From: Armatimonadetes bacterium DC
GTDB taxonomy: Bacteria > Armatimonadota > Fimbriimonadia > Fimbriimonadales > GBS-DC
Assembly (NCBI GenBank): GCA_001442985.1
Contig: LDYB01000025.1
Span: 1-64,000, forward strand
Reading direction: 5' to 3'
DNA: 64,000 nucleotides
Made by a program: the position numbers and the translations under genes
Shown: positions 21,930 through 38,775 of the stretch, one piece after another
Position numbering within the stretch: position 1 is the stretch's first letter
How the letters are laid out: every line of letters starts with the position of its first letter
The notes under the pieces: generated by a model
What the model was told of the DNA's origin: nothing
Seen by the model: only the letters and a program-made list of their open reading frames with translations
Databases searched by the model: none

Positions 21930-22511
21930 ATGCGTCGCATCGCACTCACAGGAGGCATCGCCGAGGGCAAAACCACCGTTTTGCGCATGTTTGAAGCCCT
22001 CGGCGCGACCACTTTGAGTAGCGATGCACTGGTGGCGGAGTTAATGCGTCCAGGGACGGACCTATGGAACCGATTGGTCACGGAGTTTGGGCAGGCGATT
22101 GTGCAGAGCGACGGCTCGCTGGCGCGCGAGCGCCTGGCGCAGATTGCGTTTGGCGAGGCGCAGGCGCGTCGGCGGCTCAATCGTCTGGTGCATCCCGTGG
22201 TGATGCAGGCGATTGCCGAACGGATTCGGAGCGCCGAGACACCCCTGATGCTCATCGAAGTGCCCCTGCTGATCGAAGTCGCCTTTCAGGGGCTGTTCGA
22301 TGGGATCGTGGTGGTGCAGGCAACGCCGGCGCTGCAGTATCACCGATTGCGGGAGCGTGGCGTGCCGGCGTCGCTGGCACGGCAGATTTTGCGCTCGCAG
22401 CTCCCCACACGCGCCAAAATCCCCTTCGCCGACTGGGTGATTCGAACCCATCGCTCTCTCGACCACACCTTTGCTCAGGTTCAGCGCGTGTGGCACGACC
22501 TCACTGCATAG
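21930..22511 (+). CDS. coaE: Dephospho-CoA kinase
   Basis: 193 residues. P-loop GGIAEGKTT at residues 8-16, then LSSDALVAELM, the LVHPVV motif, IEVPLLIEV and RLRERG of the lid. The last step of coenzyme A synthesis. The usual Gly of the P-loop (GxGKST) is replaced in GIAEGKTT, a tolerated variant. Its ATG directly follows the rpsA stop (TAAATG), so translation is probably coupled. Confidence 0.93.
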   Translation: MRRIALTGGIAEGKTTVLRMFEALGATTLSSDALVAELMRPGTDLWNRLVTEFGQAIVQSDGSLARERLAQIAFGEAQARRRLNRLVHPVVMQAIAERIRSAETPLMLIEVPLLIEVAFQGLFDGIVVVQATPALQYHRLRERGVPASLARQILRSQLPTRAKIPFADWVIRTHRSLDHTFAQVQRVWHDLTA

Positions 22512-22626: not shown

Positions 22627-25600
22627 GTGAACAAACGATGGTGGTTAGCAATCGCGGGGCTTTTGATTGGCGCGGCGGGCTTTGCCCAGAACACCAGCCA
22701 GCCGCCTTATCGTCCGATTCCACCGCAAAACTATCGAGTGGCGCCGCAACGCCCTCCGATGGAAGGCGCACGCTGGCACAAAAACGGGCTGTTCAACCCC
22801 CAGCAGTTTTTTGAACAGCTGCGCAATCAGGTGCGCCCGACGCGCGCCCCAAACTGGGATCGCGACCTGACCGTCGCTCCCACGGATGATATCCATCCCG
22901 TTTATTTCCCCGGTCAGGCGCGCGCCTTCTTCGCCAGCAACGCCACCGCGGTCGTGAACGGGCGACTCGCCAACCCCGGACCGCGCTACCGCATCTGGCG
23001 CGGAGACATGGACGATGGCAGCACCCCCAATCAGGGGCTGTTCACGAACCTCACCCAAATCACAGGCGACACCCCCGATGAGCAGTTCGGCAGCCAGATC
23101 CAGCCCTCGCTGAACCAGCAGGGCAACATTCTGGCATATGCGAACCTCACCGCATCGGGCAACTACAATATTGTGGTGCGCAACCTCTCCACAGGACAGC
23201 GCATCGTGCTAACCACCGATACCGATGGCGTAACCCAGAACCTCCGTCCCACCCTCAGCCCGGGAGGCAACCTTGTCGCCTTCGCTTCGAACCGCCTTGA
23301 ACCGGGCGAAACTGAAGCTGACCGCCGGTTCCGCATCTATGTGATGCGCACCGATGGGCGCCCCTTCGATGACGGCACCATCTACCGACGCTACACCTTC
23401 CCTGACCCAGGCGAAAACGACCTGGAACCCGCGTGGTCGCCCGATGGGCGGCTGATTGCGTTCGCGCGCACCTTTCCGGATGGCAGCAGCTATATCCATG
23501 TGGTAGACGCCGATACCCGTATTGTAACGCAGTGGACCTCCTTCGTGGACGGCTCGGGCAACCGCCCGCAGGACCGTCAGCCCGCCTGGGACCGCACGGA
23601 AGACGGCACGCTGGTGCTGGTGTTCGCCAGCACGCGCAAGTCGCTGGACAATCAGGGACGCCATCAGCGCGGACAACCCAGCAACAGTGTCAGTACGGAC
23701 AACATTTTCGATATCTATGCCGTCGCTGCCGACCTGCCCGAAGATTCGGGCATCCGCACCCCTGTCTCCTACACGGTAGACCCCAGTACCCCGGCGATGG
23801 CACGCCCGAACTATCCGGGCGACCCCGGCACCTTCGCAGGAGCGCAATACCCCTCCAGTGCGGTGGTGGCGCGCGACCGGGTTCTCTATCAATCCACACG
23901 ACCAAACGCGGAAAACAACGAGGGTCCCCACGATATCTGGGAAACCGCCACACGCGACACCACACCGCCGGTTATCGAAACCCTGCCGGAGATTGTGTCG
24001 GGCAAGGAACTTTTCCCTGGCGATGAAGTGGTTATCCGCGTCAAAGTGGTAGACCTGCAGAGTGGCGTCAACTTCGTGCGGGTGCAGTTCAAAGACCCCG
24101 ACAGCGCCGAGCAGGATGCCGAGGGGCTGGAACATAAACTCTACTGGCTCTTCCAGTTCGATATCTTCTTCCCGAACCGTATTCTGGCAGACCAGAACCA
24201 GGCGTATGTGCCCCTGTTTGTGGAGATCGGTTGCCAGGCGATTCATCCCGAAACCTACGAATACAAAGACCCCTACTCGCTGGCGTCGCTGGGCTTCGAT
24301 GGGCGCCTGGAGGATACGCTTTTGCTGACCCCTGTGCCCAACGAACCCGATGTGTACGAGGCACGATGGCGCACGCCGGATGTGCCCAGCGACTTCTACT
24401 TTGACATCATCGTTCGCGATAACGCAGGCAACGAATTCATCTACGATAACATCTCAGGGTTCACCACGCGCCGCTTCACAGGCGCCAATAACATTCTGCT
24501 GGTTTCCGACTATATGGGCGGGCAGATTTTCGTGCAGAACCGCATCGGGGAGATTGGCACCAACGTCACCCGCCCCACATGGCAGCCTGTGGAGAGCTAC
24601 TGGACAGACAACCCCACAGGCAAGCCACCGTTCCACTTCACGCAGCCGCCTTCGGGCACACCGCTGCCCATTATTGGGGACGGCGCCATCACGCACCCTG
24701 ACTTCGGGTTCCCGGTGTGGATTCGCGCCGATACGCTCGGTTCGAACACCCCCTATGGCAACACCTATGACATCTGGCGCGTGCAGTGCCGCAACCCGAT
24801 TACGCCCTCCGTGCTGGCAGGCTACCTGCCGCGCACCGAGCAGGAACCCGTGGACCTGGAGGGCAACTACCGCACCAAGCTGCACGCCGAGCGAATCGTT
24901 ATCTGGGGCAGCCCCTACACGGGCAATGTGTGGGCAGGACCGGGTCATCTTCTGGACCCCGAGGTGCAGACCCTGCTGCAGTCGTATCTGGCAGGTGGGG
25001 GGCGCCTGATTGTGAGCGGTCAGGATGTGGCGTGGGCGCTTTCGCTCGCAGGAGGGTTGTCCAGCCAGTTCCTGGCGAACACGCTTCGCGCAGGCTTTGA
25101 TAGCGACACGGCGATAGACACTTTCCTGCAGGCATATCAGGGGCTGCGCCACATTATCGCCAGCGATGGCTTGCTGGGCGATACAACGCAAGGCGAAGAC
25201 CCCAACCCCTTCCCGGAGAACCCGGCAGGGCTGGGTATCTGGCCGCCGCCACTGCGTGCAGGCGCGCCCGGCGCAGATGCGCCCGCGACCTTCCGCCTGT
25301 CGCACCCTGGATTTTTCGCCGATGGAGGGTTTGATGTCATTCCGCCCGTGGGCGCTGGCACAACCACACCGCTCTACACCGATGCGGCGTGGAACCAGGT
25401 GTGGCTGGACACTGTAACCGTTAGCCCCGACAAAGCGGCGCCCTATCGCTATCAGAACCGTGGTCCGGGCGGCGCGCTGGGGTTGGGCACTTCCGATCGC
25501 GCCGGCTCCTACTACTATGACCCAAACACCAAAGCGAAGGTCGCCTTCTTCGCCTTCGGGATTGAAGGTGTCAACACCCACTACACGCCCAGCCAGCTGG

Positions 25601-28056
25601 GAACGATTCAGGTTCTCTGGGCGCACTCGTATCGCAATAAGATTTTGCACAACGGCTATGTCTGGATGACGCACAGCATTGTGGAGGGTGTGGTGCGCGA
25701 ATACGACCCCGACACGCGCGAGTATCGCCCGCTGCCACGCGCGCTGGTGCGCATCACAGGGCTGTTCCCGCCCAGCGTGGCGAACCAGACAACGGGCTAC
25801 GCCGTCACCGACTCCGCAGGGTTCTATCGCATCGTTGGGCTGGAAGCGGGGATCTATCTCATCGACGCTGTTCGCCCCGGCTATCGCATCCAGCATCCGG
25901 AATCGGTAACACTGGCAGGAGGCACGCAGACCATCAATCTGGTCATGCTCAAAAGCCCGCCGGGTCAGATTGCGGGGCGCGTGGTCGATATCAACGGGCA
26001 ACCCGTGCGCTATGCAAAAGTGGTCGCCACCAACACCACCGACCCGCTCCTGACCGTGGAGGCTCTGACCGATGCCGACGGCAGCTTCCTGCTGACGCGC
26101 GTGCCGGCAGGAACTTATAATGTAGCCGTTACCGAAGTGCCTGCCGCCTATACGCTGCCGCCGGTGCGCCCCACGCCCGATGGAGTGTTCCGCGATGTGC
26201 AGGTCGCCGCGCTCCAGACCACGAACCTGCCCGAAGATTTCGTGATCGCCCCACGCCCGGGCACGGTAACAGGCACTGTTGTGGATAACACCACGAATCA
26301 GCCTATTGCCAACGCCCGCGTTATTGCGACGGCAAGCAACCAGAGCCGCGGCGAGACCTTCACAGACGCCAATGGGCAATACACGCTCTCCGTGCCTGCA
26401 GGGCAATACACACTCACGGCGTCCGCGCCCGGCTATCAGCCCGATGGGGAAGTGGTCACGGTCGTCTCCGACCAGACCGTAACCGTCAACTTCCGCCTGA
26501 ACCCGCTGCCACCGGGGAGCATCAGCGGACGCATCACCCGCAAGATTGGCGGCGCCGGCGAGCCGAATGTTACGGTGGAAGTGGTGTTTGGCTCCAGCAC
26601 GATCACTTCAGGCACCACCGATTCAGATGGCAACTACACCATCCCGAATGTGCCGCCCGCGGACTATGTGGTGCGCCCGCGCAAGGCCGGGTTCACCTTC
26701 GAACCCGCCCAGCGCACCGTTACGGTAACCTCTGGGCAGACCACCGTGAATGTGAACTTCCAGTCCTCACCGCTGCGCACCTTCGTGCGCGGTCGGTTCC
26801 TGGTGTCCGCACCGTATGACTACGCCCAGGATGTGAAGAGCCTGCTGGAAGTGCCACAAAACGCGGTGTTCAAGTTCTTCACCTGGGATCCGCAGGCGAT
26901 GCGCTATGTGTTCTATCCGAACGCGCCTGCCAATCGCTTCGAACTGGGACGCGGGTACTTTATCGAGAGCTCCGTGGACCTGCCGCTGGCGACGGAAGGC
27001 ACGCCTGCTGACGAGAATGCGCCCTTCTCCATCCAGCTCCGACGCGGCTGGAACCTGATTGGCACGCCGTTCCGCAACACCGTGGCGTGGGAGCGCACGC
27101 AGGTGCTGGATCCTGATACGAATCAGGTGATTTCCAACTCGACGGCTGTCGGGCGCCAGCTGATTGGCAACGCGCTGTGGGGCTACTCGTTTGGCACCTA
27201 CAATGTCACGCGCCAGATGAAGCCATGGGAGGGCTACTGGGTGTACGCTTATCGCGACATCACCCTGATTATCCCGCCCGATGCGATTACGCGCAGTGTT
27301 ACAGGGCGCGCGGCGCTCAACAGTGTGGGCGGTTGGACGCTGACCCTCGAGGCGCAGTCGGGTGAGGCGCGCGATCGTGCCTACATCGGTGTCTCCCGCG
27401 CGGCGACGCCCGGCTACGACAGCGAATACGATGTGCTGAAGCCGCCGCCTGTCGACGCGAACTATGTCTACATCAGCGTGCCGCGCCTGGAGTGGGGCGC
27501 CCACAGCGGACTCTACGGCGTGGATATCCAGCCTGTGAGCCGCTCGGCACGCTGGGAGTTCACTGTGGAAACCGCACGCCCCGGTCAGGAGGTGACCCTC
27601 CGCTGGCCCGATATGGCGCAGCTGCCGCGCGCGGCGAACCTCGTGCTGGTCAACCTGCAGACGGGCGAGCGACGCTACCTGCGCACCACGCCCAGCTACA
27701 CCTTCCGAACCGATGCGAACGGTGTCGGGCGCTTCCGCATCGAAATGGCGTCCAGCGGCGGCTTGCTGCGCGTCACGAACCTGCAGGTGGCGTCCGGACG
27801 CGGCAACCAGCACACCATCACCTTCAACCTGACAGGAGAAGCCACCGTTCAGGTGAATATCATGGCAGGCGGTAAGCCGGTGCGCACGCTGATGCACCAG
27901 GCTTCCCGCAGTGCCGGGTTGCAACAGGTTTCCTGGGACGGGCGCGACCAGAACGGTGTTGCGCTACCGCCCGGCTCGTACACGGTGGAAATCCGCGCCA
28001 CCAGTGAGGACGGTCAGATTGCTCGCGCGGTCACGACCCTGATCCTCACACGCTAA
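22627..28056 (+). CDS. Giant exported protein: TolB propeller, GATase-like, carboxypeptidase-regulatory repeats, FlgD-Ig tail
   Basis: 1809 residues. GTG 22627 follows GAGGAGG; the signal peptide is WWLAIAGLLIGAAGFAQ. In order: a TolB/WD40-like propeller (about 150-440, for example EPAWSPDGRLIAFART); an Ig-like region (about 450-600); a Rossmann-type segment with LLVSDYMGGQIF and GGGRLIVSGQDVAWAL (about 620-820), as in secreted peptidase-associated domains; and four carboxypeptidase-regulatory-like repeats (starting about 1016, 1113, 1211, 1296; motif ADGSF/ADGNY...VPAGTY). The shared C-terminal module runs from about 1390 (LVSAPY, GWNLIGTPF, WEGYWVYAY). The FlgD-like Ig domain covers about 1731-1809, with SWDGRDQNGVALPPGSYTVE and the end LILTR. 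No enzyme active site is evident. First gene of a co-directional six-gene run. Probably located at the cell surface. Confidence 0.85.
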   Translation: MNKRWWLAIAGLLIGAAGFAQNTSQPPYRPIPPQNYRVAPQRPPMEGARWHKNGLFNPQQFFEQLRNQVRPTRAPNWDRDLTVAPTDDIHPVYFPGQARAFFASNATAVVNGRLANPGPRYRIWRGDMDDGSTPNQGLFTNLTQITGDTPDEQFGSQIQPSLNQQGNILAYANLTASGNYNIVVRNLSTGQRIVLTTDTDGVTQNLRPTLSPGGNLVAFASNRLEPGETEADRRFRIYVMRTDGRPFDDGTIYRRYTFPDPGENDLEPAWSPDGRLIAFARTFPDGSSYIHVVDADTRIVTQWTSFVDGSGNRPQDRQPAWDRTEDGTLVLVFASTRKSLDNQGRHQRGQPSNSVSTDNIFDIYAVAADLPEDSGIRTPVSYTVDPSTPAMARPNYPGDPGTFAGAQYPSSAVVARDRVLYQSTRPNAENNEGPHDIWETATRDTTPPVIETLPEIVSGKELFPGDEVVIRVKVVDLQSGVNFVRVQFKDPDSAEQDAEGLEHKLYWLFQFDIFFPNRILADQNQAYVPLFVEIGCQAIHPETYEYKDPYSLASLGFDGRLEDTLLLTPVPNEPDVYEARWRTPDVPSDFYFDIIVRDNAGNEFIYDNISGFTTRRFTGANNILLVSDYMGGQIFVQNRIGEIGTNVTRPTWQPVESYWTDNPTGKPPFHFTQPPSGTPLPIIGDGAITHPDFGFPVWIRADTLGSNTPYGNTYDIWRVQCRNPITPSVLAGYLPRTEQEPVDLEGNYRTKLHAERIVIWGSPYTGNVWAGPGHLLDPEVQTLLQSYLAGGGRLIVSGQDVAWALSLAGGLSSQFLANTLRAGFDSDTAIDTFLQAYQGLRHIIASDGLLGDTTQGEDPNPFPENPAGLGIWPPPLRAGAPGADAPATFRLSHPGFFADGGFDVIPPVGAGTTTPLYTDAAWNQVWLDTVTVSPDKAAPYRYQNRGPGGALGLGTSDRAGSYYYDPNTKAKVAFFAFGIEGVNTHYTPSQLGTIQVLWAHSYRNKILHNGYVWMTHSIVEGVVREYDPDTREYRPLPRALVRITGLFPPSVANQTTGYAVTDSAGFYRIVGLEAGIYLIDAVRPGYRIQHPESVTLAGGTQTINLVMLKSPPGQIAGRVVDINGQPVRYAKVVATNTTDPLLTVEALTDADGSFLLTRVPAGTYNVAVTEVPAAYTLPPVRPTPDGVFRDVQVAALQTTNLPEDFVIAPRPGTVTGTVVDNTTNQPIANARVIATASNQSRGETFTDANGQYTLSVPAGQYTLTASAPGYQPDGEVVTVVSDQTVTVNFRLNPLPPGSISGRITRKIGGAGEPNVTVEVVFGSSTITSGTTDSDGNYTIPNVPPADYVVRPRKAGFTFEPAQRTVTVTSGQTTVNVNFQSSPLRTFVRGRFLVSAPYDYAQDVKSLLEVPQNAVFKFFTWDPQAMRYVFYPNAPANRFELGRGYFIESSVDLPLATEGTPADENAPFSIQLRRGWNLIGTPFRNTVAWERTQVLDPDTNQVISNSTAVGRQLIGNALWGYSFGTYNVTRQMKPWEGYWVYAYRDITLIIPPDAITRSVTGRAALNSVGGWTLTLEAQSGEARDRAYIGVSRAATPGYDSEYDVLKPPPVDANYVYISVPRLEWGAHSGLYGVDIQPVSRSARWEFTVETARPGQEVTLRWPDMAQLPRAANLVLVNLQTGERRYLRTTPSYTFRTDANGVGRFRIEMASSGGLLRVTNLQVASGRGNQHTITFNLTGEATVQVNIMAGGKPVRTLMHQASRSAGLQQVSWDGRDQNGVALPPGSYTVEIRATSEDGQIARAVTTLILTR

Positions 28057-28086
28057 ACACGAAACTGTGAAGGAGGAGCTATTAGA

Positions 28087-29874
28087 GTGAAAACACGGAT
28101 GAAACGGATCTGGGCTACGCGAACCGTTACGGTCGGCGTCATCAGCATGATGGCGTTCGGGGTGCTCTATCCGCTGGGCGCGGCGCGCGCCTATGCCCAG
28201 CAGATTACCCTGCCCCGCATCGCAGTGATTGATTTCCAGAACAAGAGCGGGGTCGGGGGGCAGAGCATCGCCCGCGCCGCCACCGACGCGATTGCCAGCG
28301 AGTTCCAGAAAACAGGCAAATACGAGGTGCTGGCGCGCGGCGAGGTCGAGCAACAGCTCAAAGACCTCGAACTCGCGCCACCACTGGACCGAATCGGCTT
28401 TCTGCGACTGGGACGCGCCCTGCAGACCGAGTCTCTTATCGCGGGCGAGGTCAACGCCATCACCTTCGTGGGCAGCCCCAAACAGGCGCAGGTCACCCTC
28501 TCCGTGCGCGTGATTGATATCGCCTCCGGGGAACCGGTGAACGGCGCGGTCGCCACAGGGCGCAGCAACCCACGACCCGGCTACGCGGGCGACGACGACA
28601 CGCTCATTCAGGAAGCCATCCGCAACGCGGCGTTCGAAGCTGTGCGCATCATCCAGACAGCCACCATCCCCGAAGCCACCGTGCTGACCACCCGCGGGGG
28701 CCAAGAGGTCATCCTCAACCGCGGCATTCGTGGCGGGCTCAAGGTCGGCATGGAGATGGTGGTCATCCGCCGCGGCGAAGAGGTGGGGCGCATCCGCGTG
28801 ACGCAGGTCTCCGACAGCGATGCGGTGGCGGAAATTATTGCCGTCACGAAAGGCATCCAGTCGGAAGATAAAGCGCGCGCGATTTTTGAGGTGCCCACGG
28901 TTCAGGTGCGAGGCGGCAAGGTTGTGGAGCAGCGTCCGCAACCGCGAGGCGCCGCGAGTCGCAGTCTGCGTGCGCTGGGCGCCGTGCTGGTGCTGGGACT
29001 GATCGCCTTTGGGGTGGCACGCGGCGCTTCGGGCGGCAACACCCCCGTGCAGGATGTGATTGCCGAAGCGGGCGTCGACGGGAACTTCGAACCGATCGTG
29101 CGCATCTCGTGGAAAACAACCCTGTTCGCCAAGAATAACCGCGCCCAAATCCAGTGGCAAATCTATCGCTCCGACTTCATCGGTGTAGACGGCAACGGCA
29201 ACCTGCGCCCTGTCGGTGTGGTGCCTGGCAACCAGCATTTCTTCATCGACACCACCCTACCGCGTAATGTGACGTATGCCAGCCTGCCTCGCGAAGGCTC
29301 CGAAGACCTCGAACTGGAAGAGCTTACCGACGACGACGCGCCGCCAGGGGTCTCGCCCGGACGCTCCTACACCTACCAGCTGGCGCTGGTCTATAGCGAG
29401 GAGCGCACCGGCAGTCAGGGCGAGATCGTCACCTTCTTCTTGCTCTCCGATCGCGTGCGCTCGGGGCAAGCCACTGTGCTGAACCCCGTGCAGCTACTGG
29501 AGCCTGTCCAGCGCAGTGAGGATGTGAACCCCGCCGATGTGCGGTTCTCCTGGCTGGCAACCGAAGGGGCAAACGCCTATCGCATCGAGGTCTCCACAGA
29601 CCCGACCTTCCGCGACCGCAACCGCACCTTCGTTTCGAACGAGATTCTCTCCACTGCCCAGGGCGGTACGCCCGTGTCGTCGGAGCGAATCAACCTCGAG
29701 GCGGCGCTGCTGAACCGACTGGGGCTTACAGGACAGCGTGTAACCCTCTACTGGCGCGTGGGCGCCCGTAACCTCAGCGATAACCCCGGTCCAATTCCGG
29801 GTCCAGGCGGTCTGCGCTATGTCTGGAGCCGACCGTTTGAATTCACAACCCAAGAACTCCCGCCGAGTCCCTAA
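28087..29874 (+). CDS. CsgG/TolB-N-like exported protein with Fn3-like domains
   Basis: 595 residues. GTG 28087 with AGGAGG ten nt upstream. A signal or membrane segment covers about residues 10-38 (ending ARAYAQQ). Residues 44-170 resemble the CsgG/LpoB/FlgO-type fold: RIAVIDFQNKSG, ATDAIASEFQKTGKYEVLARGEVEQQL, LIAGEV. A FlgT-like beta-barrel segment (about 195-275) follows, then a transmembrane helix LGAVLVLGLIAFGVARGA (about 298-315). The remaining 280 residues are beta-rich, Fn3-like. No lipobox Cys is seen. Possibly a periplasmic or membrane-anchored scaffold for the neighbouring secreted proteins. It stands between two members of the FlgD-Ig family. Function inferred. Confidence 0.75.
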   Translation: MKTRMKRIWATRTVTVGVISMMAFGVLYPLGAARAYAQQITLPRIAVIDFQNKSGVGGQSIARAATDAIASEFQKTGKYEVLARGEVEQQLKDLELAPPLDRIGFLRLGRALQTESLIAGEVNAITFVGSPKQAQVTLSVRVIDIASGEPVNGAVATGRSNPRPGYAGDDDTLIQEAIRNAAFEAVRIIQTATIPEATVLTTRGGQEVILNRGIRGGLKVGMEMVVIRRGEEVGRIRVTQVSDSDAVAEIIAVTKGIQSEDKARAIFEVPTVQVRGGKVVEQRPQPRGAASRSLRALGAVLVLGLIAFGVARGASGGNTPVQDVIAEAGVDGNFEPIVRISWKTTLFAKNNRAQIQWQIYRSDFIGVDGNGNLRPVGVVPGNQHFFIDTTLPRNVTYASLPREGSEDLELEELTDDDAPPGVSPGRSYTYQLALVYSEERTGSQGEIVTFFLLSDRVRSGQATVLNPVQLLEPVQRSEDVNPADVRFSWLATEGANAYRIEVSTDPTFRDRNRTFVSNEILSTAQGGTPVSSERINLEAALLNRLGLTGQRVTLYWRVGARNLSDNPGPIPGPGGLRYVWSRPFEFTTQELPPSP

Positions 29875-29883
29875 CAATCTCAC

Positions 29884-29917
29884 GGGGGTGTTTCGGCGCG
29901 TAGCCTGAAACACCCCC
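29884..29917 (+). promoter_or_regulatory. Intercistronic hairpin
   Basis: 11-bp perfect stem GGGGGTGTTTC (29884-29894) / GAAACACCCCC (29907-29917), loop of 12 nt, no T-run. It lies between two co-directional genes and may reduce read-through or protect a processed mRNA end. Confidence 0.55.
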
Positions 29918-29956
29918 ACAAATGAATCGTCTATACCCATACGGGAGGGCAAAAGC

Positions 29957-32854
29957 ATGAAGAGCATCTGGCGATGGCTGATTGGAATGGTGCTGATTAT
30001 CGGCGTTCTGTGGGCGCAAAACTACACGCCTAACGATTTTGTGCCGGGGCAGATGGTTCTGCGTCTGCGCCCGGGCGAGACGATCGAGCGCGCCCGTGCA
30101 ATCGCAAACGCCTACAACGCCGACCTGCGCCCAATTGAAGTGCCTGATACTTATGTGCTAACCCTGCGCGAGAACCTGCCCGCGCAGGCGCTGGTGGATA
30201 AAACCGTGCAGGTGGTGGAGCAAATCAAAAACGAGCCGGGCGTTCTCTACATCGAACCAAACTGGATTATGCAACCACACGAAATTCCCAACGACCCCCT
30301 CTTCTCCCAGCAGTGGGCGCTCACGATGATTAAAGCGCCTGGTGCATGGGACACCGAGAAGGGGCAGGCAGGAATTCGGATTGCCTTTATCGATGACAAC
30401 TTCCAGACCAGCCATCCCGACCTTGCAGGACGCTTTGATCCGCTCTCCCGTAACTTTGCTACCGACGACGAAGGCGGCAACACCAATATCGATCCCGAGG
30501 CTCCCGGCTTCTCGCACGGCACCTCCACGATGGGAGTTGCCGCCGCGAACACCAACAATGGGCAAGGAATCGCCGGACTGTGCTGGGAAGGTGTCACTGT
30601 GGTGGCGATTAAAGTGTCGGAAATGCCACTCGGTCCTATTCTTCTGGATCGTGTTCTCAGAGCCTACCAATATGTGCTGGATAATGCGGCGCAGATTCAT
30701 GTCCTGAACATGAGCTACGGTTTTTTTGTGCCCTCGCCGCAGCAAAACGATTATATGCAACGCCTGTATCAGGCAGGGGTTATCCCGGTGGCTTCCGCAG
30801 GAAACCATGGAAGCTCGGTGCCCTCCTATCCCGCCTCATTCCCGAATGTCGTGAAGGTCTCCGCGGTGGGACCCGACTACCTGCTGGCATCGTACTCGGC
30901 ATATGGGGGCGTTACGATTACCGCACCAGGGGGCGACCAGGAAGCACGCTATGAAGACGGGGTCTTGACCACTGCCAGCACAAGCCAGCGCTACGATTAT
31001 GTGCAGGGTACCTCTTATTCGGCGCCCTATGTCTCCGCGGCGCTGGCGCTGGTGCTTTCGGCAGGCGTACGCCGCCACACAGCCGCGGACACCACACCCC
31101 CGGCGCTGGAGATTCTGATGGAGACCGCCGACCCGCGCGGGCGGCAGGTGCCCGACCCCGAATTCGGGGCAGGCATTATTGATGTAGAAGCCGCTCTGCG
31201 CGGTCTGGGTGGCGCTTCGATCGCGTTTGTAGAACCGACGACAGGCGCTACTTTCGACACCCGCCGTGTGAAAGTGAAAGTTACAGTGCGCCGTGTGCTG
31301 GATAACGCCACCGATAACATTACGATCAAGGTCAACGACGATGTGGTTCCGCGCAGCGAGTGGGAGCCGAACGCGGTGGTGGATGTGGCTCGCAAGACAA
31401 TTTCTATAGAATTTATCGCCACTTTCCCGGGCGAGGGGCGCCATACGGTGGAAGTCAGCGCGGTGGGGCAGGATGGGCTGACCAAAACTGCCTCCATTCA
31501 GGTGATTATCAAAGCCCATGTCCAGCAGAAAGGGCTGACCATGTTCGCCGTGCCCTATCGGGTTTCCCAGCGCCCCGAGGAGATTTTTGGTCCCGATGTG
31601 GTGCTGGCGCGCTATCTGCCCGAGCAGGGCACTTATGCACGCTACACTCTCAACAACCCCGATGAGAACGCCAGTTTCAATCCGCCGAATGTGGATGTGC
31701 GCCCGGTGAATAGTTCCACGCCGACGCCGCCGCGCGGGCTGGGCTACTTCCTGCGCACCCCTGCGCCCGGCTTCATTCTGGGCGATGAACCGGTGGATAC
31801 CAACACCGCTTACCGCATCCCCTTGCAGCCGGGCTGGAACATGATTGGCAACCCGTTCCCCTTCAATGTGCCGTGGAACGCATGCGAGGTTGAAATCACG
31901 GGCGCGGAAGGGATTACGGAGCGCATCACGCTACAGGAGGCGGCAGACCGCGATTATATTCGCCTGCAGATTTACCGCTATCTGCCTCTCACGGGGTCTT
32001 ATACATGGCGTACTGCGCCGCTGGGCGAACTGCGTGCTTGGGAAGCCCACTGGGTGCGGGCGTTGAAGCCATGCGTGCTGATTGTGCCGCCTGTGGGGAG
32101 CCTGCGCAGCACCCCTGATGATTCCCAGCGCATCACGCCGAACGCGGGCAGTGGCTGGCTGGTGCGGCTCGCGGCACGCTCAGGCGACCGTGAAGATGCC
32201 AACAACTTCATCGGCGCGGGCGTGCGCCCCGAGAGCGTGGAGAAGCCGCCCCTGTTCCAGTCTTATGTGAACCTGACCATTCGCGAGCCGCGTTCACGCG
32301 CCGCGCTGGCGCAGGATGTGCGCCCGGGCGCCCGACGCGCCCAGCGATGGGAAGTGGAGGTCACCACCGATCAGCCCAACGCGGAGGTGACGCTCACATG
32401 GAATCAGGAAATGCCCGTGCCGAAAGGCGCACGGCTGGTGCTGACCGACACCGTAACCGGTGCGAAAATCTCGATGCTGCAGCAGAGCGCCTACACCTTC
32501 CGCACGGATGAGACCAGCCGACGCCGGTTCGTGATCGAGTTCCAGCCCTCGCGTATCGGGCAACTGCGCATCACCAACATCGGCGTGACCCGTACACGCG
32601 GCAACCAGTTCTCCATCCAGTATGCGCTGAGCGGCAACGCGAATGTGCAGGTGCAGATTCAGGACGCTTCGGGCAAGCCGGTGGCGCGCCTGCAGTCGGG
32701 GAGCCGTGCCGCAGGTCTCAATAGCGTCACCTGGAACGGGCGCACCGACGACGGCATCGCCGTGCCACCCGGAGCCTATCAGGTACAGATTATCGCAACC
32801 ACCGAAGAGGGCGAGACAGCGCGTGTCGTGCGCCCCATCGTGATTACCCGCTAA
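29957..32854 (+). CDS. Secreted subtilase (S8) with shared C-terminal module and FlgD-Ig tail
   Basis: 965 residues. Signal peptide residues 1-20 (ending VLWAQ). An inhibitor-like propeptide (about 25-105) has FVPGQMVLRLRPG and EPGVLYIEPNW, as in S8 zymogens. The catalytic domain (about 118-410) has Asp146 (IAFIDDNFQTSHPDL), His187 (GFSHGTSTMG), Asn283 of the oxyanion hole (SAGNHG) and Ser353 (GTSYSAPYVS). All four residues are present, so it should be active. An Ig-like domain follows (about 415-525), then the shared module (LTMFAVPYRV at about 526, GWNMIGNPF at about 625). The FlgD-Ig domain is at about 878-965 (TWNGRTDDGIAVPPGAYQV, ending IVITR). It could process the neighbouring proteins that carry the same tail, or digest external protein. 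Confidence 0.9.
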   Translation: MKSIWRWLIGMVLIIGVLWAQNYTPNDFVPGQMVLRLRPGETIERARAIANAYNADLRPIEVPDTYVLTLRENLPAQALVDKTVQVVEQIKNEPGVLYIEPNWIMQPHEIPNDPLFSQQWALTMIKAPGAWDTEKGQAGIRIAFIDDNFQTSHPDLAGRFDPLSRNFATDDEGGNTNIDPEAPGFSHGTSTMGVAAANTNNGQGIAGLCWEGVTVVAIKVSEMPLGPILLDRVLRAYQYVLDNAAQIHVLNMSYGFFVPSPQQNDYMQRLYQAGVIPVASAGNHGSSVPSYPASFPNVVKVSAVGPDYLLASYSAYGGVTITAPGGDQEARYEDGVLTTASTSQRYDYVQGTSYSAPYVSAALALVLSAGVRRHTAADTTPPALEILMETADPRGRQVPDPEFGAGIIDVEAALRGLGGASIAFVEPTTGATFDTRRVKVKVTVRRVLDNATDNITIKVNDDVVPRSEWEPNAVVDVARKTISIEFIATFPGEGRHTVEVSAVGQDGLTKTASIQVIIKAHVQQKGLTMFAVPYRVSQRPEEIFGPDVVLARYLPEQGTYARYTLNNPDENASFNPPNVDVRPVNSSTPTPPRGLGYFLRTPAPGFILGDEPVDTNTAYRIPLQPGWNMIGNPFPFNVPWNACEVEITGAEGITERITLQEAADRDYIRLQIYRYLPLTGSYTWRTAPLGELRAWEAHWVRALKPCVLIVPPVGSLRSTPDDSQRITPNAGSGWLVRLAARSGDREDANNFIGAGVRPESVEKPPLFQSYVNLTIREPRSRAALAQDVRPGARRAQRWEVEVTTDQPNAEVTLTWNQEMPVPKGARLVLTDTVTGAKISMLQQSAYTFRTDETSRRRFVIEFQPSRIGQLRITNIGVTRTRGNQFSIQYALSGNANVQVQIQDASGKPVARLQSGSRAAGLNSVTWNGRTDDGIAVPPGAYQVQIIATTEEGETARVVRPIVITR

Positions 32855-32867
32855 GGAGGCTATCGAA

Positions 32868-35579
32868 ATGATGAGAAGCAAACAACTGATCACTCTGGTG
32901 TTGGGTTTGGCATGGGGCTTCGCCAGTGGGCAAAGCTATAGCCCCTTCACCCCCCCTTGCAACTGCCCGGATAACCAGGACCCTGTGAGTGACGACTACA
33001 GGCATATCAACATCACCAACGGGGTTCTGGGCGCCACGCTGGGCTTAGGCGGAACCGTTACATGGATTACAGGCTGCTTCCCCATAGAAAACGCGGAATG
33101 TACCACACGCCCTGCGGAGGGAAGCATCCAGCTGGGTACCGACCGGGGTTCCGCTCTTGTGGGGGACGGCGGCTATGCCCTCACTTCAGGCTACCCCTGG
33201 GGAGTCTATCCTGGCGGGATTTTCATCACGATGCGCCCCGACAACCGTGACCCCTTCGTGTGGGGACAGGGAGACGCCCGTTTTTCGCAGGCGTGGCCCG
33301 GCGCCAGCGGCTACTATATCCGCCGTATCTGGAATGTGGAAGACTGGGATACCGATCTAAGAATTGACCTCATCCAGTCGGTGGCGCGCATTAGCCTCAA
33401 AGTGCGCAACACCAGCACCGAGACCCGACGCCTCTCCCTGCGCCTCGCCTCCGATGTGGAGACAGGAGTGGAAACGGGACCGCCCTACATTTACGCGCAG
33501 GGCATCCGCCCTATCACGGTGGACACCGTTCTGGGCAACCTGCCGCTGGAAATCGAGCAGAATCTGCCTGCCGAGTTCAGTCGCGTGCGCGGGCGCCAGC
33601 CCGTGCCGAACGCGATTGAATTCTATCAGTCGCGTGGCGACCTGCGCGGCGCCTCCCGCTATATCCTGAAACCCATCAAAGGGTTTGAAGATGCGACCCC
33701 AATTGATGGACTGGTGGTGGCAAAGTGGTTCTTCATTCAGGGAACCACCAACTGGGCGCCAACCCTGTTCCCTGATTCCACGATAGGAGATTCTGCCATC
33801 AACCTGTTTGTGAACGACCGTGTGTTCGCTCCCGGTCAGGAGCGCGAATTTGTGTTCTATGTGTCCCTGACGCCGGTGGACACCGATGTGCAGCCCCCCC
33901 TGGCGCTGGGCGTGGAGGCACTGCCTGTTGTGGAACCGGACCGCAGCGATCTTACGAAGCTCCAGAACAACGGGGTCTTTACAGTAATCGCCAATGTGAC
34001 GAACCAGTTCTTCGTCGTGGGGCGCGAGGTAGACCTGAGTAATGTCACAGTGGACATCGCCCTGCCCAACAATTTGAGCCTGGCGTCAGGTGAGACCCGC
34101 ACCAAGACCATCCCACGCCTTGCCCCCGGCGAGACCCGCGCCGTTAGCTGGAGCGTCGTGGCAGACCCGCGCTTCGCCGGCTTTGCGACCATCCGCGTTT
34201 CGGCGCAGGCGCCTCCCGCACCCAATAAGAGCGTCTCGCGCACCATCCTGATTTCGGCAACCGCCAACCGTCAGGCGTATAAGGGATTCCAGCTGGCTTC
34301 CATCCCATTCACCACCACCACGACCCTGGATCAGGTGCTGAACCTGACCCCGGGCTCCTATCAGGTGAAACGCTGGAACCCTGAAATTGAAGCGTATGAA
34401 GAGATTGATTCCATCCGCCCGGGCGAGGCGTTCTGGCTCTACCTGCCCAACGACGCGGCAGTGGTGCAATATGCAACGGGTACGGTTCAGTTCCCCTCCG
34501 GGGTGTTTACCGATAGCGTGCCGTTGCGCCTTGCCCAGGGCTGGAACCAGATTGGCAACCCGTACCCCTATCCGCTGGTGCTGGGGCAGATTGTGATTGT
34601 CAGCGCCAGCAATCCGCGCGAGAGCATCACCTTCTTCGAAGCAGCCCAGCGCGGGGTGATTCGGGGCGTTCTTTACTACTGGGATGAGTTCACCCAGCAA
34701 TACAAGTTCACCTCCGACCCGAACACGCCCCTGATTCCGCATCGGGGCTACTGGATTAAGGCGAACGACGATATTGAGCTGGTCTTCCCGCCGGTGTTCC
34801 TGCCGGGCACAGGGTTCGGCGGGATTATCAACCGCTCGGCTTCGGAGACGCCGAACCAGCCAAACAACTGGCGCCTGCAGATTATCGCGCGAACCGCCCG
34901 CGGCGAAGACAGCGAGAACTACATCGGTCTGGCCTCGGGACGCGCCGCTGGCGAGGTGGAGGAGCCACCTATCCCTCTTGTGGAAGTGCCTGTACGCCTG
35001 ACAATCCTCAAACAGGGCACAGGCGCGCCGCTCATGCAGGATGTACGCCCTGTTAGCGGCACGCGCCACCAGTTTGAGTTCGTCGTGGAGGCGCAACCCG
35101 GCGAGGAGGTGAGCCTCCGGTTCCCGAACCTGCGCACGATCCCCACAGGCTATCGACTGCGCCTGACGGATCAGAGTACGGGGCGCACAATAGACCTGCG
35201 CACCACGCCGGAGTACCGCTTCGTCTCCACGGGACGCGCGCGATTTACCCTCACGGTGGAGCGTGCGTCGCGAGGCGGCGCCCTCATCACCAGCATGACG
35301 GTCACCTCCGCAGGGCGCGGCGTGCAAAGCGTCTCCATCTCGTATGTGCTGGCAGACGACGCGCAAACCGAGGTGCGCATTCTGGGCACGAATGGGGCGC
35401 CCGTCGCCACGCTCCAGCAGGGACGCGCCGCCACGCGCGGAGCCAATACCGTCGTGTGGAACCTGCGCGACCAGCAGGGACGCGCGGTGCCGCCCGGCAC
35501 CTATCAGGTGCAGATCGAAGCACGCACTGAGGACGGGCAGGTCGCGCGCATGGTACGACCGCTGATTCTCACACGCTAA
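32868..35579 (+). CDS. Exported protein of unknown N-terminal type with shared module and FlgD-Ig tail
   Basis: 903 residues. Signal peptide residues 1-21 (ending GFASGQ). Residues 22-470 form an extracellular region I cannot assign, with NITNGVLGATLGLGGTVTWITG and several Cys near the start, and a CARDB-like stretch (about 395-465, LAPGETRAVSWSV). The shared module runs from about 475 (LASIPFTTT; GWNQIGNPYPY at about 557; PHRGYWIKA). The FlgD-Ig domain is at about 820-903 (VVWNLRDQQGRAVPPGTYQV, ending LILTR). It begins 13 nt after the subtilase stop with AAGGAGG, so co-transcription is nearly certain. Function unknown; a surface structural role is inferred. Confidence 0.8.
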   Translation: MMRSKQLITLVLGLAWGFASGQSYSPFTPPCNCPDNQDPVSDDYRHINITNGVLGATLGLGGTVTWITGCFPIENAECTTRPAEGSIQLGTDRGSALVGDGGYALTSGYPWGVYPGGIFITMRPDNRDPFVWGQGDARFSQAWPGASGYYIRRIWNVEDWDTDLRIDLIQSVARISLKVRNTSTETRRLSLRLASDVETGVETGPPYIYAQGIRPITVDTVLGNLPLEIEQNLPAEFSRVRGRQPVPNAIEFYQSRGDLRGASRYILKPIKGFEDATPIDGLVVAKWFFIQGTTNWAPTLFPDSTIGDSAINLFVNDRVFAPGQEREFVFYVSLTPVDTDVQPPLALGVEALPVVEPDRSDLTKLQNNGVFTVIANVTNQFFVVGREVDLSNVTVDIALPNNLSLASGETRTKTIPRLAPGETRAVSWSVVADPRFAGFATIRVSAQAPPAPNKSVSRTILISATANRQAYKGFQLASIPFTTTTTLDQVLNLTPGSYQVKRWNPEIEAYEEIDSIRPGEAFWLYLPNDAAVVQYATGTVQFPSGVFTDSVPLRLAQGWNQIGNPYPYPLVLGQIVIVSASNPRESITFFEAAQRGVIRGVLYYWDEFTQQYKFTSDPNTPLIPHRGYWIKANDDIELVFPPVFLPGTGFGGIINRSASETPNQPNNWRLQIIARTARGEDSENYIGLASGRAAGEVEEPPIPLVEVPVRLTILKQGTGAPLMQDVRPVSGTRHQFEFVVEAQPGEEVSLRFPNLRTIPTGYRLRLTDQSTGRTIDLRTTPEYRFVSTGRARFTLTVERASRGGALITSMTVTSAGRGVQSVSISYVLADDAQTEVRILGTNGAPVATLQQGRAATRGANTVVWNLRDQQGRAVPPGTYQVQIEARTEDGQVARMVRPLILTR

Positions 35580-35588
35580 CGGAACGAT

Positions 35589-35609
35589 GGGGGAGGGAAC
35601 CCCTCCCCC
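35589..35609 (+). promoter_or_regulatory. Intercistronic hairpin
   Basis: 9-bp stem GGGGGAGGG (35589-35597) / CCCTCCCCC (35601-35609), loop AAC, no T-run. It sits in the 51-nt gap before the next gene. Confidence 0.5.
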
Positions 35610-35630
35610 GCACTCAAGGAGGAATCTATC

Positions 35631-36323
35631 GTGAGGAAAGTCTGGCTTCTTGGGATATGGCTGACCCTGTGTGCGCCACTGTTTGCCAGCGACACGCGGG
35701 AACTGGTGCTGTTCCCCTTCGGCACGACCAGCACGGTGCAGCAGCCCGAAGACTTCAACCTGAATGCGGAGCTGATGGGCGCACTCTACGCCCAGCTGAA
35801 AGACATCCCTAACCTCTATGTATGGCGGTTTCGGGAGAATAGTCCTTCGGTGCGCCGAGCGCTGGACGAAAACCGCCTGCGCCGCGATCGCCTCAATCCG
35901 CCTTTTAACGAGCGCGAAGCCGACGGCACCTTCCGCTCGGCGCGGATTGGCGCGATTGTGGGCGCGCAATATGCGCTCGCAGGCACAATTGCCGAGTTCC
36001 GTTACGACCCCAATACCCGCGAGGCGACGATTACTGTGAGTGTGGACCTTGTGCAGGTCGGCACAAACGAGCTGCTGGTCTCCATCGGGGAGACGGGACG
36101 CGGACGGCTGGCGCGCGACGAGTCGGACCCCAACTTAGCCTACATTCGGGCAATCGCAGATGTGGCGCAAAAGATTGCTCCTGCTATCAAAGAGCGTCTG
36201 GCGCCTGCGCCCCAGACCGCGCCCCAGCAAACCGAGAAAAAAGCCGACCGTCGTCGGGAACGCACCGCGCTCGGACTCTTCCTGCTCCTTCTGGGTGTCG
36301 GATTCGAGTTGGCCGATTTCTGA
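35631..36323 (+). CDS. Second CsgG-like exported protein
   Basis: 230 residues. GTG 35631 with AAGGAGG eight nt upstream. Signal peptide residues 1-19 (ending PLFAS). RELVLFPFGT starts a domain like the first half of the CsgG-type protein two genes upstream (ARIGAIVGAQYALAGTIAEFRYD matches its LIAGEV region). The C-terminus has a charged linker (EKKADRRRER) and a hydrophobic end (TALGLFLLLLGVGFELADF), perhaps a membrane anchor. The next gene starts at ATG 36325, one nt after the stop, so the two are coupled. Role probably linked to the outer-membrane barrel that follows. Confidence 0.7.
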   Translation: MRKVWLLGIWLTLCAPLFASDTRELVLFPFGTTSTVQQPEDFNLNAELMGALYAQLKDIPNLYVWRFRENSPSVRRALDENRLRRDRLNPPFNEREADGTFRSARIGAIVGAQYALAGTIAEFRYDPNTREATITVSVDLVQVGTNELLVSIGETGRGRLARDESDPNLAYIRAIADVAQKIAPAIKERLAPAPQTAPQQTEKKADRRRERTALGLFLLLLGVGFELADF

Positions 36324-36324
36324 G

Positions 36325-38262
36325 ATGATTCGGCGACGGCTCCTGCGCTTTGCCCTCACAGAGGGTCTGATGACCCTCTGTGTTGCTGTTTCTCTGGCGC
36401 AGGGCACGCTCCGCCTCACGGTCTACCCGAACGCGCTGGTTGCCGACGGCATTTCCACCGCGCTGGTTACCGCAGAGGTTCGCACGCCTCAGGGGAAACC
36501 CGTGCCCGATGGCACGCAGGTAGCGTTCAGCACCACGCTGGGCGCCTTTCGCGAGGCGCTGGTGGCGACCGAGGGCGGTGTGGCGCGTGCCACCTTTGTG
36601 GCGGCGTCTGTGCCCGGCGTCGCCGTGATTACCGCCAGCGCGCTGGGACAGTCCGCCGTCGGCGAGGCGCAGGTGGTGATGGTGCGCTCGCCTGAAGACC
36701 TGCGCGCCGCCACCGACTATGTGCAGGTGTTCGGAACCGAATATCTCGCGTTCGCCAACGAGCAGCGCATCATCGCCGCCTCTGGAGCCAACTTCGGCGC
36801 CTCGGTGCGCTTCGGGCTGACCACCCTCGAAGCAGACGATTTGCAACTGGAGACCGATAGCCTGCGAGTCAAGGCACGCCACGCCCGTCTGCGCTTCGGC
36901 TCGGAAACCGCCACCTACAACGAGCTGGTGTACGACCTGCGCACCAGTGAAGGCTACGGCGTCACGGAACACGAGGGGCGCTGGCAGGTGTTCCGTATCC
37001 GCTCTGGGCTGCGCACGCCGTTCCCTGAGCCGCTCCCGCCCGACTGGTTCCAGTTCGCCGACCTCTCCTACTCGGAGATGGTGATCAGGGCACGGCAAAT
37101 CTGGTTCTACCCGGGTGAGCGCCTCCAGTTCCGTCAGGCGGAGTTCTATGTGGGCGATGTGCGCGTGCTGAGCCTGCCCCTCTATTCGCACAGCGTGTGG
37201 GGCAGTGGGGTAGGCGCGGACACCTTCTTCGGCGTGCAAAACGGACAGGTCTATCTGGACATTCCGTACTATTATGCGCTTGCGCCCGGTCAGGTCGGGG
37301 CGCTACGCCTGCGCACAGCACAACGCGCCTCACGCGGCACAGGCATCTCGCGAGGACTGTTTCTGGATTTGGAGCATGAATATCGCTGGGGGCAGGGGCA
37401 GGGCGCGTTTACCTTCACGGGACTGGGGCGCGACGATTGGGGCGTCCTCTGGCGACACAGCCAGCCGCTGGGAACGCGCACGCGCATGCACCTGTGGCTC
37501 GATTCGCCTGCCCATCAGGGGCTTTACAGCTCTGCTCAGGTAAGCCATCAGGGCAGAGGGTTCTCGCTGGGGGCTACTGTTGCGGGTAGCACTTTCTGGG
37601 AAGGGTCTGACGCCCGTTCCCTGCGTACCGATCTCTTTGCGGAAAGCACGCCCCGCAAGATTGCGAACCTCCCCCTGCGCCAGAGTCTCGCTCTCACTTT
37701 CAGCAGCGCCACGACCCGCACCACCCAGTTTCAACAGCGGCGTGAAGGGTTCGGCATCCGCGCCCGATGGAACCTCATTCCCCAATCGTTAGACCGCCAG
37801 ACCACCTTAACTGGCGGCTTTGTCGCAGGGCGCTACCTTGGCAACCTGCCGAACGCAGGCTGGAGCTTTACAGGCACGCTGGGAATTACCCGCGCGCTGG
37901 GGCGCACGGGCGCCTTCACCCTCACCTATGACTATAACGAAGATGCGCTCGGCGTCAGTCTGCTGGGGCGCCACCGCCTCAGCGGCAGCCTTTCGTGGAA
38001 CCCTTCCGAACACCTGACGCTTGCCGGTTACTTCAGCCGCGCGCTGGACACCGACACTTTCAGCTATCTTGCCGACGCCTCATGGCGAATCAGCGGTCTC
38101 TGGCGCATCGGCTCAGGAATCACATGGCAGGCGTTTCAGGGCAATACCTTCCGCGACCATACCTTTACAATAGCCTACCGAATCGGCTTCCGCGAAGTCG
38201 CGCTCACATGGTCTTCCAACACGAAACGATGGAGTTTCGATATCCTGACCGCTTTCTATTGA
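36325..38262 (+). CDS. Outer-membrane beta-barrel protein: Ig-like plus LptD/OstA-like
   Basis: 645 residues. Signal peptide residues 1-26 (ending VSLAQ). Residues 28-120 form an invasin-type Ig domain (ADGISTALVTAEVRTPQGKP, VAFSTTLGAF). Residues 120-300 look like the OstA/LptD N-terminal beta-jellyroll, including MVIRARQIWFYPGERLQFRQ and FYVGDVRVLSLPLY, the pattern seen in LptD. The rest is a run of amphipathic strands with Tyr/Trp girdles, ending in ...DILTAFY. An aromatic last residue is the usual signal for barrel insertion. This supports a diderm envelope. It could be the outer-membrane gate for lipid or for the surface proteins encoded upstream; which one cannot be decided. Confidence 0.75.
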   Translation: MIRRRLLRFALTEGLMTLCVAVSLAQGTLRLTVYPNALVADGISTALVTAEVRTPQGKPVPDGTQVAFSTTLGAFREALVATEGGVARATFVAASVPGVAVITASALGQSAVGEAQVVMVRSPEDLRAATDYVQVFGTEYLAFANEQRIIAASGANFGASVRFGLTTLEADDLQLETDSLRVKARHARLRFGSETATYNELVYDLRTSEGYGVTEHEGRWQVFRIRSGLRTPFPEPLPPDWFQFADLSYSEMVIRARQIWFYPGERLQFRQAEFYVGDVRVLSLPLYSHSVWGSGVGADTFFGVQNGQVYLDIPYYYALAPGQVGALRLRTAQRASRGTGISRGLFLDLEHEYRWGQGQGAFTFTGLGRDDWGVLWRHSQPLGTRTRMHLWLDSPAHQGLYSSAQVSHQGRGFSLGATVAGSTFWEGSDARSLRTDLFAESTPRKIANLPLRQSLALTFSSATTRTTQFQQRREGFGIRARWNLIPQSLDRQTTLTGGFVAGRYLGNLPNAGWSFTGTLGITRALGRTGAFTLTYDYNEDALGVSLLGRHRLSGSLSWNPSEHLTLAGYFSRALDTDTFSYLADASWRISGLWRIGSGITWQAFQGNTFRDHTFTIAYRIGFREVALTWSSNTKRWSFDILTAFY

Positions 38263-38274
38263 GGAGGAACTGCC

Positions 38275-38775
38275 ATGCAGGAACCGATGCTCCATTTGCA
38301 GGGTTTGCCGCTGAAGATAACGCCCCGCTACTTTACCACAGGGGCAGGCGCCGGTGTTTCCGCGTTTGAGCTGGTCTCGTTTGACCGCGCCTTGCGGGAA
38401 GCAGGGTTTGCCGACTACAACCTGCTTCGGGTTTCCAGCATTCTGCCGCCCTCGGCAGAACACCGCAGCCATGTGGAGTTGCCTAAAGGGAGCCTTTTGC
38501 CAATCGCCTACGGCGTATTTACCTCGAACGAAGAGGGCGCCCGAATCGCCGCGGCGGTCTCCTACGCCCAGCCCACCGACCCTGACGCCGTGGGCGTCAT
38601 TATGGAGACAGAAGGTTATATGACCGAACGCGAGGCGCATGACCTCGTGGTGGCGATGGCGGAGGAGGCGATGGAAGACCGCAACCTCAAAATCGCCCGC
38701 CTCGAAGTGGTCGCTGTGGAAGCGACGGTGGAACTCTACACCACTGTGTTCGCAGGTGTGGCGCTCTGGGGATAA
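38275..38775 (+). CDS. Pyruvoyl-dependent arginine decarboxylase
   Basis: 166 residues, the size of the PvlArgDC proenzyme. YFTTGAGAGVSAFELVSFD and NLLRVSSILPPSAEH mark the family. Self-cleavage is expected within Ser54-Ser55 of VSSI, making the pyruvoyl group on the alpha chain. Also seen are GSLLPIAYGVFTSNEEGARIAAAVS and ETEGYMTEREA. It decarboxylates arginine to agmatine for polyamine synthesis. It starts 13 nt after the barrel gene with a strong Shine-Dalgarno, so it may be the last gene of that operon despite the unrelated function. Confidence 0.92.
   Translation: MQEPMLHLQGLPLKITPRYFTTGAGAGVSAFELVSFDRALREAGFADYNLLRVSSILPPSAEHRSHVELPKGSLLPIAYGVFTSNEEGARIAAAVSYAQPTDPDAVGVIMETEGYMTEREAHDLVVAMAEEAMEDRNLKIARLEVVAVEATVELYTTVFAGVALWG

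Follow-up and report, generated by a model that had tools for sequence, protein, structure and literature searches.

What is a compact run of genes for giant exported proteins and outer-envelope proteins doing in nearly every sampled genome of a whole diderm phylum, when the role of the cluster is undescribed? The question is raised by a stretch of 64,000 nucleotides from Armatimonadetes bacterium DC, a member of the order Fimbriimonadales in the phylum Armatimonadota (the window: positions 1 to 64,000 of contig LDYB01000025.1, assembly GCA_001442985.1). Six consecutive genes in it, from 22627 to 38262, encode three giant proteins (A, B and C) that share one C-terminal module, called here the tail, a CsgG-like protein, a small protein (P5) and an outer-membrane barrel resembling LptD. 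As a cluster of outer-envelope genes this locus is real and ancient and seems to be undescribed, and its pair of a ring-type gene and a second LptD-like gene, usually beside giant tail proteins, looks like a machine for building the cell surface. The first-pass annotation knew of no described system of this composition, and no published description was found in the literature searched.

All six genes were recovered as open frames on the + strand in an open reading frame check (the barrel frame from 36325), and the gaps between consecutive genes are 30, 82, 13, 51 and 1 bases. Signal peptides in the following list are a by-eye judgement only.

22627..28056, + strand: protein A, 1809 aa, signal peptide, PD40 propeller match, CarboxypepD_reg repeats, common tail
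26743..28056, + strand: tail of A (GWN module, middle part, FlgD immunoglobulin-like (Ig) domain), final residues ILTR
28087..29874, + strand: CsgG/FlgT/PelC-like protein, 595 aa, signal peptide (Pfam CsgG 21.4 bits; AlphaFold2 (AF2), Foldseek and VIA-align)
29957..32854, + strand: protein B, 965 aa, subtilase (Pfam Peptidase_S8 3.6e-36), signal peptide, common tail
31490..32854, + strand: tail of B, final residues VITR
32868..35579, + strand: protein C, 903 aa, signal peptide, N-terminal half without a Pfam family, common tail
34242..35579, + strand: tail of C, final residues ILTR
35631..36323, + strand: P5, 230 aa, small CsgG/LpoB-like protein, signal peptide, C-terminal hydrophobic stretch
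36325..38262, + strand: LptD-like outer-membrane protein, 645 aa, signal peptide, Invasin_D3/Big_1 Ig domain, jelly-roll-like strands, barrel of about 22 strands

Concerning the distribution of these genes, profiles of the barrel, the CsgG-like protein and the tail were searched in 291 Armatimonadota genomes, 194 of them high-quality; as many of the assemblies are drafts, gaps account for some of the absences. The barrel profile matched 278 genomes (188 of the high-quality ones), the CsgG-like profile 274 (191) and the tail profile 274 (186). Barrel and tail occur together in 265 genomes, the barrel alone in 13, the tail alone in nine and neither in four (hand tally). The first-pass annotation had proposed to build a tail profile; neither observation that it named as speaking against its own reading, a profile matching isolated genes only or a complete known type IX secretion system that explains the tails, was made. 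The CsgG-like profile also led to 15 named loci at 56-78% identity, which belong to the family of the window and carry the labels Fimbriimonadales, Fimbriimonadia, Armatimonadetes or Armatimonadota, HR15 or plain bacterium.

The gene order is conserved as well (G, C, L and f numbers denote our genomes, contigs, loci and families). Within the order Fimbriimonadales it reads rpsA-like, coaE, (A), CsgG-like, (B), C, (P5), barrel, where the genes in brackets are not found in every family. The first two form a conserved flank that also precedes the locus in relatives:

20418..21929, + strand: ribosomal protein S1-like (rpsA-like) gene (Pfam S1 3e-72)
21930..22511, + strand: coaE, dephospho-CoA kinase (Pfam CoaE 3.8e-41)

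Protein A was seen in f1, f2 and f4 loci and not in those of f5 or f3, some flanks lying outside the fetched stretch, and the f3 loci are also without B and P5. The subtilase is absent at all nine f3 loci fetched, though their protein C retains the FlgD tail (L047 starts at a contig end). The subtilase had been put forward as the processing enzyme of the tails; it is thus not required as such at the locus, and for the locus the proposal was rejected.

Outside the order, 17 genomes of 16 other families were picked from the listed matches, not at random. The CsgG-like gene is present in all 17 and adjoining tail genes in 16, with none on the 9.7-kb contig of G192. In six of them a further giant tail protein, D (1612-3140 residues), lies 3' of C, and many families retain the rpsA-coaE flank. 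Furthermore, pair order was counted from the best 150 barrel and the best 150 CsgG-like matches, which have 126 genomes in common; the count leaves out 24 listed matches of each kind without a listed partner, as well as weaker unlisted matches. In every one of the 100 genomes with both listed matches on one contig, the CsgG-like gene lies upstream of the barrel gene on the same strand, at a distance of 136 to 16446 bases (median 3077); the two matches lie on different contigs in the other 26 of the 126.

Two small f3 genomes, G160 and G161 (1.5 Mb, 97% complete), present neither a barrel nor a tail match, and the CsgG-like match of G160, beside coaE (L147 8773-9540), contains four stop codons. 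These genomes may be losing this envelope system.

Regarding the tail, the first-pass annotation described three proteins with unrelated N-terminal parts and one common end, and this description was borne out. Before the tail, A presents a PD40 match and four CarboxypepD_reg stretches, B presents Peptidase_S8, and C has no Pfam family, FlgD_ig being its sole family over the cut-off. The tail of about 440 residues is common to the three proteins by blastp: 36% over 388 residues for A and B (E 5.5e-54), 29% over 530 residues for A and C (E 8.6e-42) and 33% over 489 residues for B and C (E 4.7e-53). FlgD_ig is over the Pfam cut-off at the C-terminus of all three. The GWN-IGNP motif ascribed to the tails has to be corrected for A, which reads GWNLIGTP.

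The end of the tail is fixed. Among 85 complete FlgD-bearing tails, taken from the fetched loci and the window, the stop falls exactly at the profile end in 80, the last residue is Arg in 81 (the R fraction is 0.094 in the last 100 residues), Pro stands at -6 in 71 and Arg at -10 in 66. Of 17 tails lacking the FlgD domain, six have Arg as the last residue. These patterns give the tail the appearance of a signal or anchor at the C-terminus.

Moreover, the presence of FlgD is near-uniform per locus. When 18 families were represented by a single genome apiece, each holding at least two complete tails, one mixed genome was observed versus 10.8 expected, and none of 100,000 shuffles was at or below this value, kinship and paralogue exchange being uncorrected. 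Families f3 and f11, with one tail each, were left out, and f5 was represented by G021 and not by the mixed G023, a second f5 genome; G227 and G023 are the two mixed genomes. Locus proteins without the FlgD domain, with barrel and CsgG-like matches kept, were found in one representative each of f4, f31, f32, f34 and f35. FlgD_ig (PF13860) matches elsewhere in the genome were seven in G217, five in G229 and two in G232 (f31, f34 and f35), one in G223 (f32) and none in the f4 genome. A genome-wide loss of a FlgD sorting system was rejected for this reason, the loss being locus-wide.

A profile built from the three window tails detects seven clear tails in the window's own genome, the three at the locus and four more (C16, two on C19, and C25:157 kb), with no barrel within the 20 kb fetched around these four. 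The protein at C25:157 kb (L060 6944-11848) has 1635 residues and a long WD40 repeat array. Two others, of 2208 and 2214 residues on different contigs (L058 5748-12371 and L059 2987-9628), present an identical domain set of LVIVD repeats, TIG, DUF7619 and FlgD_ig.

The barrel protein had been called OstA/LptD-like, and such a likeness comes from the predicted fold as compared by Foldseek, VIA-align not singling LptD out, and not from Pfam families. The AF2 model (21 sequences; mean pLDDT 79, pTM 0.62) contains the Ig domain at 27-122 (Pfam Invasin_D3, 2.9e-9), a run of strands at 133-290 (block pLDDT 83-95) and then about 22 barrel strands by our own count. Foldseek ranks 1-15 are all LptD (8.2e-16 to 1.1e-12, TM-scores 0.24-0.32), and rank 16 is a pilus usher at 1.6e-7. 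Neither PF04453 nor PF03968 matched any of the 21 aligned barrel proteins at E up to 0.5; Pfam LptD (PF04453) was over the cut-off in 0 of 41 genomes, with positive E. coli and Caulobacter controls, and a PDB sequence search with the barrel profile returned Ig domains only. The terminal aromatic residue reported for the window protein is not a conserved feature, as F or Y ends 11 of the 21 aligned proteins (hand count).

Two sub-threshold PF04453 matches, in G015 and G034, led to a second, more canonical LptD family. Two of its members gave no Pfam match and are, we take it, LptD-like by their motifs; the family profile reaches LptD in the PDB at 7.6e-6. It matches 278 of the 291 genomes, the weaker matches being partly cross-hits to the window-type barrel, which probably include the sole match in G017 (1.1e-8) and weak matches in f22. 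The window's own genome carries a gene of this family (G000:C26:266-2356, 7.9e-249). The idea that the window barrel is the cell's only LptD, prompted by the Foldseek result and by its presence in nearly all genomes, was dropped once this family emerged in the phylum. Since the genome has another LptD of more canonical type, the window barrel is best taken for a second LptD-like protein that has diverged. Profile comparison places the two families in a distant relationship (hhalign E 1.1e-5, probability 82%, 379 columns), and the whole suggests an early duplication and re-use of an LptD-type protein. The likeness to LptD would lie in this profile relation and in what the model presents as jelly-roll-like strands leading into a large outer-membrane barrel. 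On the other hand, the window-type protein differs by its N-terminal Invasin_D3/Big_1 domain, its 0-3 cysteines and its strand number, as the LptD barrel has 26 strands. In the window barrel, the Ig domain occupies the end by which LptD docks LptA.

The partner of the barrel is the 28087 protein. Both this protein and P5 had been described as CsgG/LpoB-like, which holds for the former, just over the Pfam CsgG cut-off (21.4 versus 20.8 bits, residues 41-152), while P5 gives only FlgT_M, LpoB and LptE hints, all below the cut-off. The P5 proteins of G018, G227 and G184 match the CsgG-like profile at 2e-5, 4e-11 and 7e-14, respectively. The CsgG-like protein has a CsgG-like domain (41-195), a beta domain (about 194-266), a hydrophobic helix (about 290-314) and C-terminal fibronectin-type domains. 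CsgG subunits each have two transmembrane beta hairpins, and the AF2 model of the window protein (pLDDT 81, pTM 0.46) places strands at 116-128 and 133-144. In Foldseek, FlgT is the top match of the model (1.7e-10, TMq 0.18), and a phage tail tip, fibronectin-type chains, CT253, CsgG, PelC, GNA1162 and LpoB are among the further matches. VIA-align gives tied scores for the first domain with PelC (Z 13.2), FlgT (12.8) and CsgG (12.4), and 11.2 for TolB. The PelC alignment (rmsd, root-mean-square deviation, 2.7 over 129 residues) indicates a common fold and is no proof of function, and the FlgT one, over residues 42-266 with an rmsd of 11.3, is a fold comparison only. An F-ATPase subunit domain is matched by residues 194-266 (Z about 10), while residues 316-595 resemble fibronectin type III pairs (Z about 9). 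Searched against PDB sequences, the CsgG-like profile had no significant match, and a search of viral contigs found no relative of the protein.

These features relate the protein to known ring-type proteins and also set it apart from them. It shares with FlgT a CsgG-like domain followed by a beta domain, and with PelC of the PelBC pair a ring-type alpha/beta domain and a gene near that of an outer-membrane barrel. However, it differs from PelC in its extra beta domain, helix and fibronectin domains, and in its LptD-like partner. It differs from CsgG in that the window protein has no cysteine for a lipid anchor (none in the translation, and none in a count after residue 40). A hydrophobic 19-residue stretch between the parts was found in all 19 sequences compared (mean hydropathy 1.95-2.63). 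Two cysteines stand at fixed C-terminal columns in 13 of 13 f3 and f5 sequences and in 0 of 6 from f1 and f4. Such pairing suggests a disulfide and, with it, that the parts before and after the helix both lie outside the cytoplasm. An inner-membrane helix would then fit badly, and the helix may instead cross the outer membrane or be buried in a ring. Arg and Lys lie on the N-terminal side of the helix (about 290-314), and the flanking domains both look extracytoplasmic.

In f21, the 1067-residue frame L132 1-3203 (G192), cut by the contig end, has a P5 match at its start and a barrel Ig match near its end; P5 and the barrel Ig domain may be fused in this family.

Taken as a whole, these data lead us to favour, tentatively and as somewhat less than probable, an uncharacterised outer-membrane translocation or assembly platform with tail-bearing surface clients. 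The core would consist of the CsgG/FlgT/PelC-type ring protein and the second LptD-like barrel with its Ig domain. The ring protein would form a ring at the periplasmic face of the outer membrane, in contact with the barrel, as PelC stands beside PelB, and the two together would translocate or assemble surface material. The usual clients would be the giant exported proteins A, B and C (D in other families) with their GWN/FlgD tail, which may be surface components held to the platform, or exported through it, by the C-terminal module. The first-pass annotation suggested that the tail may be a sorting or anchoring signal recognised by the neighbouring envelope proteins. The fixed C-terminus of the 85 tails and the clustering in many families agree with the first part of this claim, and its second part, recognition by the neighbours, finds no support.

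Several observations weigh against the platform and its clients. The nine genomes with a tail and no barrel match are of this kind, as are the 13 with a barrel and no tail match, one of which (G120) is a draft with matches at contig ends. In G171 and G199 the CsgG-like and barrel genes are side by side and the tail genes are gone, an adjacency that favours the core pair itself, but the tails are not needed by the barrel or the ring protein, and the FlgD-less loci keep the core. The pair is also kept in G201, where the CsgG-like match is split over two frames. In G194 (f22, L143) the order rpsA-like, coaE, CsgG-like is followed by no barrel in 9.6 kb downstream (some N); a barrel match exists in that genome, outside the listed same-contig set, and this layout means that the core pair can be separated. 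Concerning the tail, the FlgD_ig matches elsewhere in the f31, f34 and f35 genomes give no indication that a genome-wide sorting system was lost there, and a single FlgD_ig match in 38 of 85 f3 genomes (hand count) is easier to reconcile with one partner than with a general sorting signal; in G024, G032, G034 and G037, which have this single match, the domain is on locus protein C. In VIA-align the barrel matches LptD at rank 11 (Z 13.5), with other barrels at or above it (Z 15.2 to 13.6). Finally, as the rpsA-coaE position is conserved too, joint function does not necessarily follow from gene order by itself. From the tail-less loci, what stays constant is in most cases the CsgG-like and barrel pair, to which tail proteins are often added.

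The main competing explanation makes the barrel an additional exporter of lipids or glycolipids (LptD2) which, with a PelC-like ring, brings a special lipopolysaccharide (LPS), a capsule lipid or an exopolysaccharide to the surface, whereas the tail proteins bind the product and are exported otherwise. The LptD-like fold with its jelly-roll-like strands, PelC among the tied best matches of the ring protein and the survival of the core without tails would all fit. Moreover, the excerpts available of the Fimbriimonas ginsengisoli paper (PMC4072686) describe LPS genes and a visible capsule. They also report type II secretion system genes and a likely diderm envelope, and mention no such locus. 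The tail genes adjoining the CsgG-like gene in 16 of the 17 genomes outside the order argue against this exporter, as does the lack of any recognised lipid or polysaccharide synthesis gene (Pfam) in the 15 window genes that the scan covered (17709 to 43126), and we consider it a possible but rather unlikely explanation.

A surface coat or adhesive layer is a further alternative and an unlikely one. Here A, B, C and D would be structural or enzymatic components, and the block would be kept by slow rearrangement beside rpsA-coaE, with no joint mechanism. The flank kept in many families and the four tail proteins of the own genome with no barrel in the 20 kb fetched around them point in this direction. 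Against it stand the CsgG-like gene preceding the barrel in all 100 same-contig cases despite such different gaps, and the near-uniform FlgD presence within a locus.

We also regard as doubtful the idea that Armatimonadota possess an outer-membrane system of their own that exports proteins and anchors them at the surface, with no kinship to any named secretion system. It would combine a CsgG/PelC-like ring with its hydrophobic helix passing through the outer membrane, a barrel of LptD descent adapted early in the phylum from lipid to protein assembly, and cargo with a C-terminal GWN/FlgD module ending in RxxxPhhhTR.

Regarding the type IX secretion system (T9SS), its C-terminal domain (CTD) is Ig-like, with the targeting signal within the last 22 residues, according to the portion of PMC4804311 available; this is a parallel to the tail and not evidence. 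Both share a C-terminal Ig-like domain and a fixed C-terminus, but the locus tail profile spans about 440 residues. TIGR04183 (type A CTD) reaches 17.0 of 23 bits on B (E 0.0042), below the cut-off, and no match to A or C is listed at E up to 1. All three proteins match the tail end of the PorU model weakly, A at 0.0074, B at 0.0012 and C at 0.0024. SprA_N (PF14349) matched 0 of 41 and 0 of 291 genomes and was also silent in all 14 control genomes, so this negative stands without a positive control. That the tails are T9SS cargo signals is, despite the Ig-like fold and these weak matches of TIGR04183 and PorU, very improbable given the SprA_N and TIGR04183 results.

With respect to the literature, two hot-spring Armatimonadetes have LPS genes and BamA, and one of them, JP3_11, is the source of a locus studied here (PMC5629042); the available part of PMC5007114 lists Armatimonadetes among the phyla with LPS core genes. 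No paper pairing Armatimonadota with LptD was found in the library searched. The cluster offers a genetic target in cultured Fimbriimonadia for learning how deep-branching diderms build their surface.

The remaining observations concern the surroundings of the locus. Neither flagellar or curli genes nor pel operon partners were recognised by Pfam among the 15 window genes scanned, and no whole-genome search was made for them. A plasmid tblastn with protein B returned 318 records, all below 60% identity and none with a query coverage above 80%; S8 peptidases make up the three records displayed. The downstream neighbour is also present in four f1 loci (L038, L061, L062 and L064):

38275..38775, + strand: pyruvoyl-dependent arginine decarboxylase

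Terminator-like sites in the region are rarer than in shuffles (9 observed versus 13.1). Within the signal-peptide codons of the LptD-like gene, window positions 36357-36382 form an 11-pair hairpin followed by a partly T-rich stretch, which could be an attenuator or chance.

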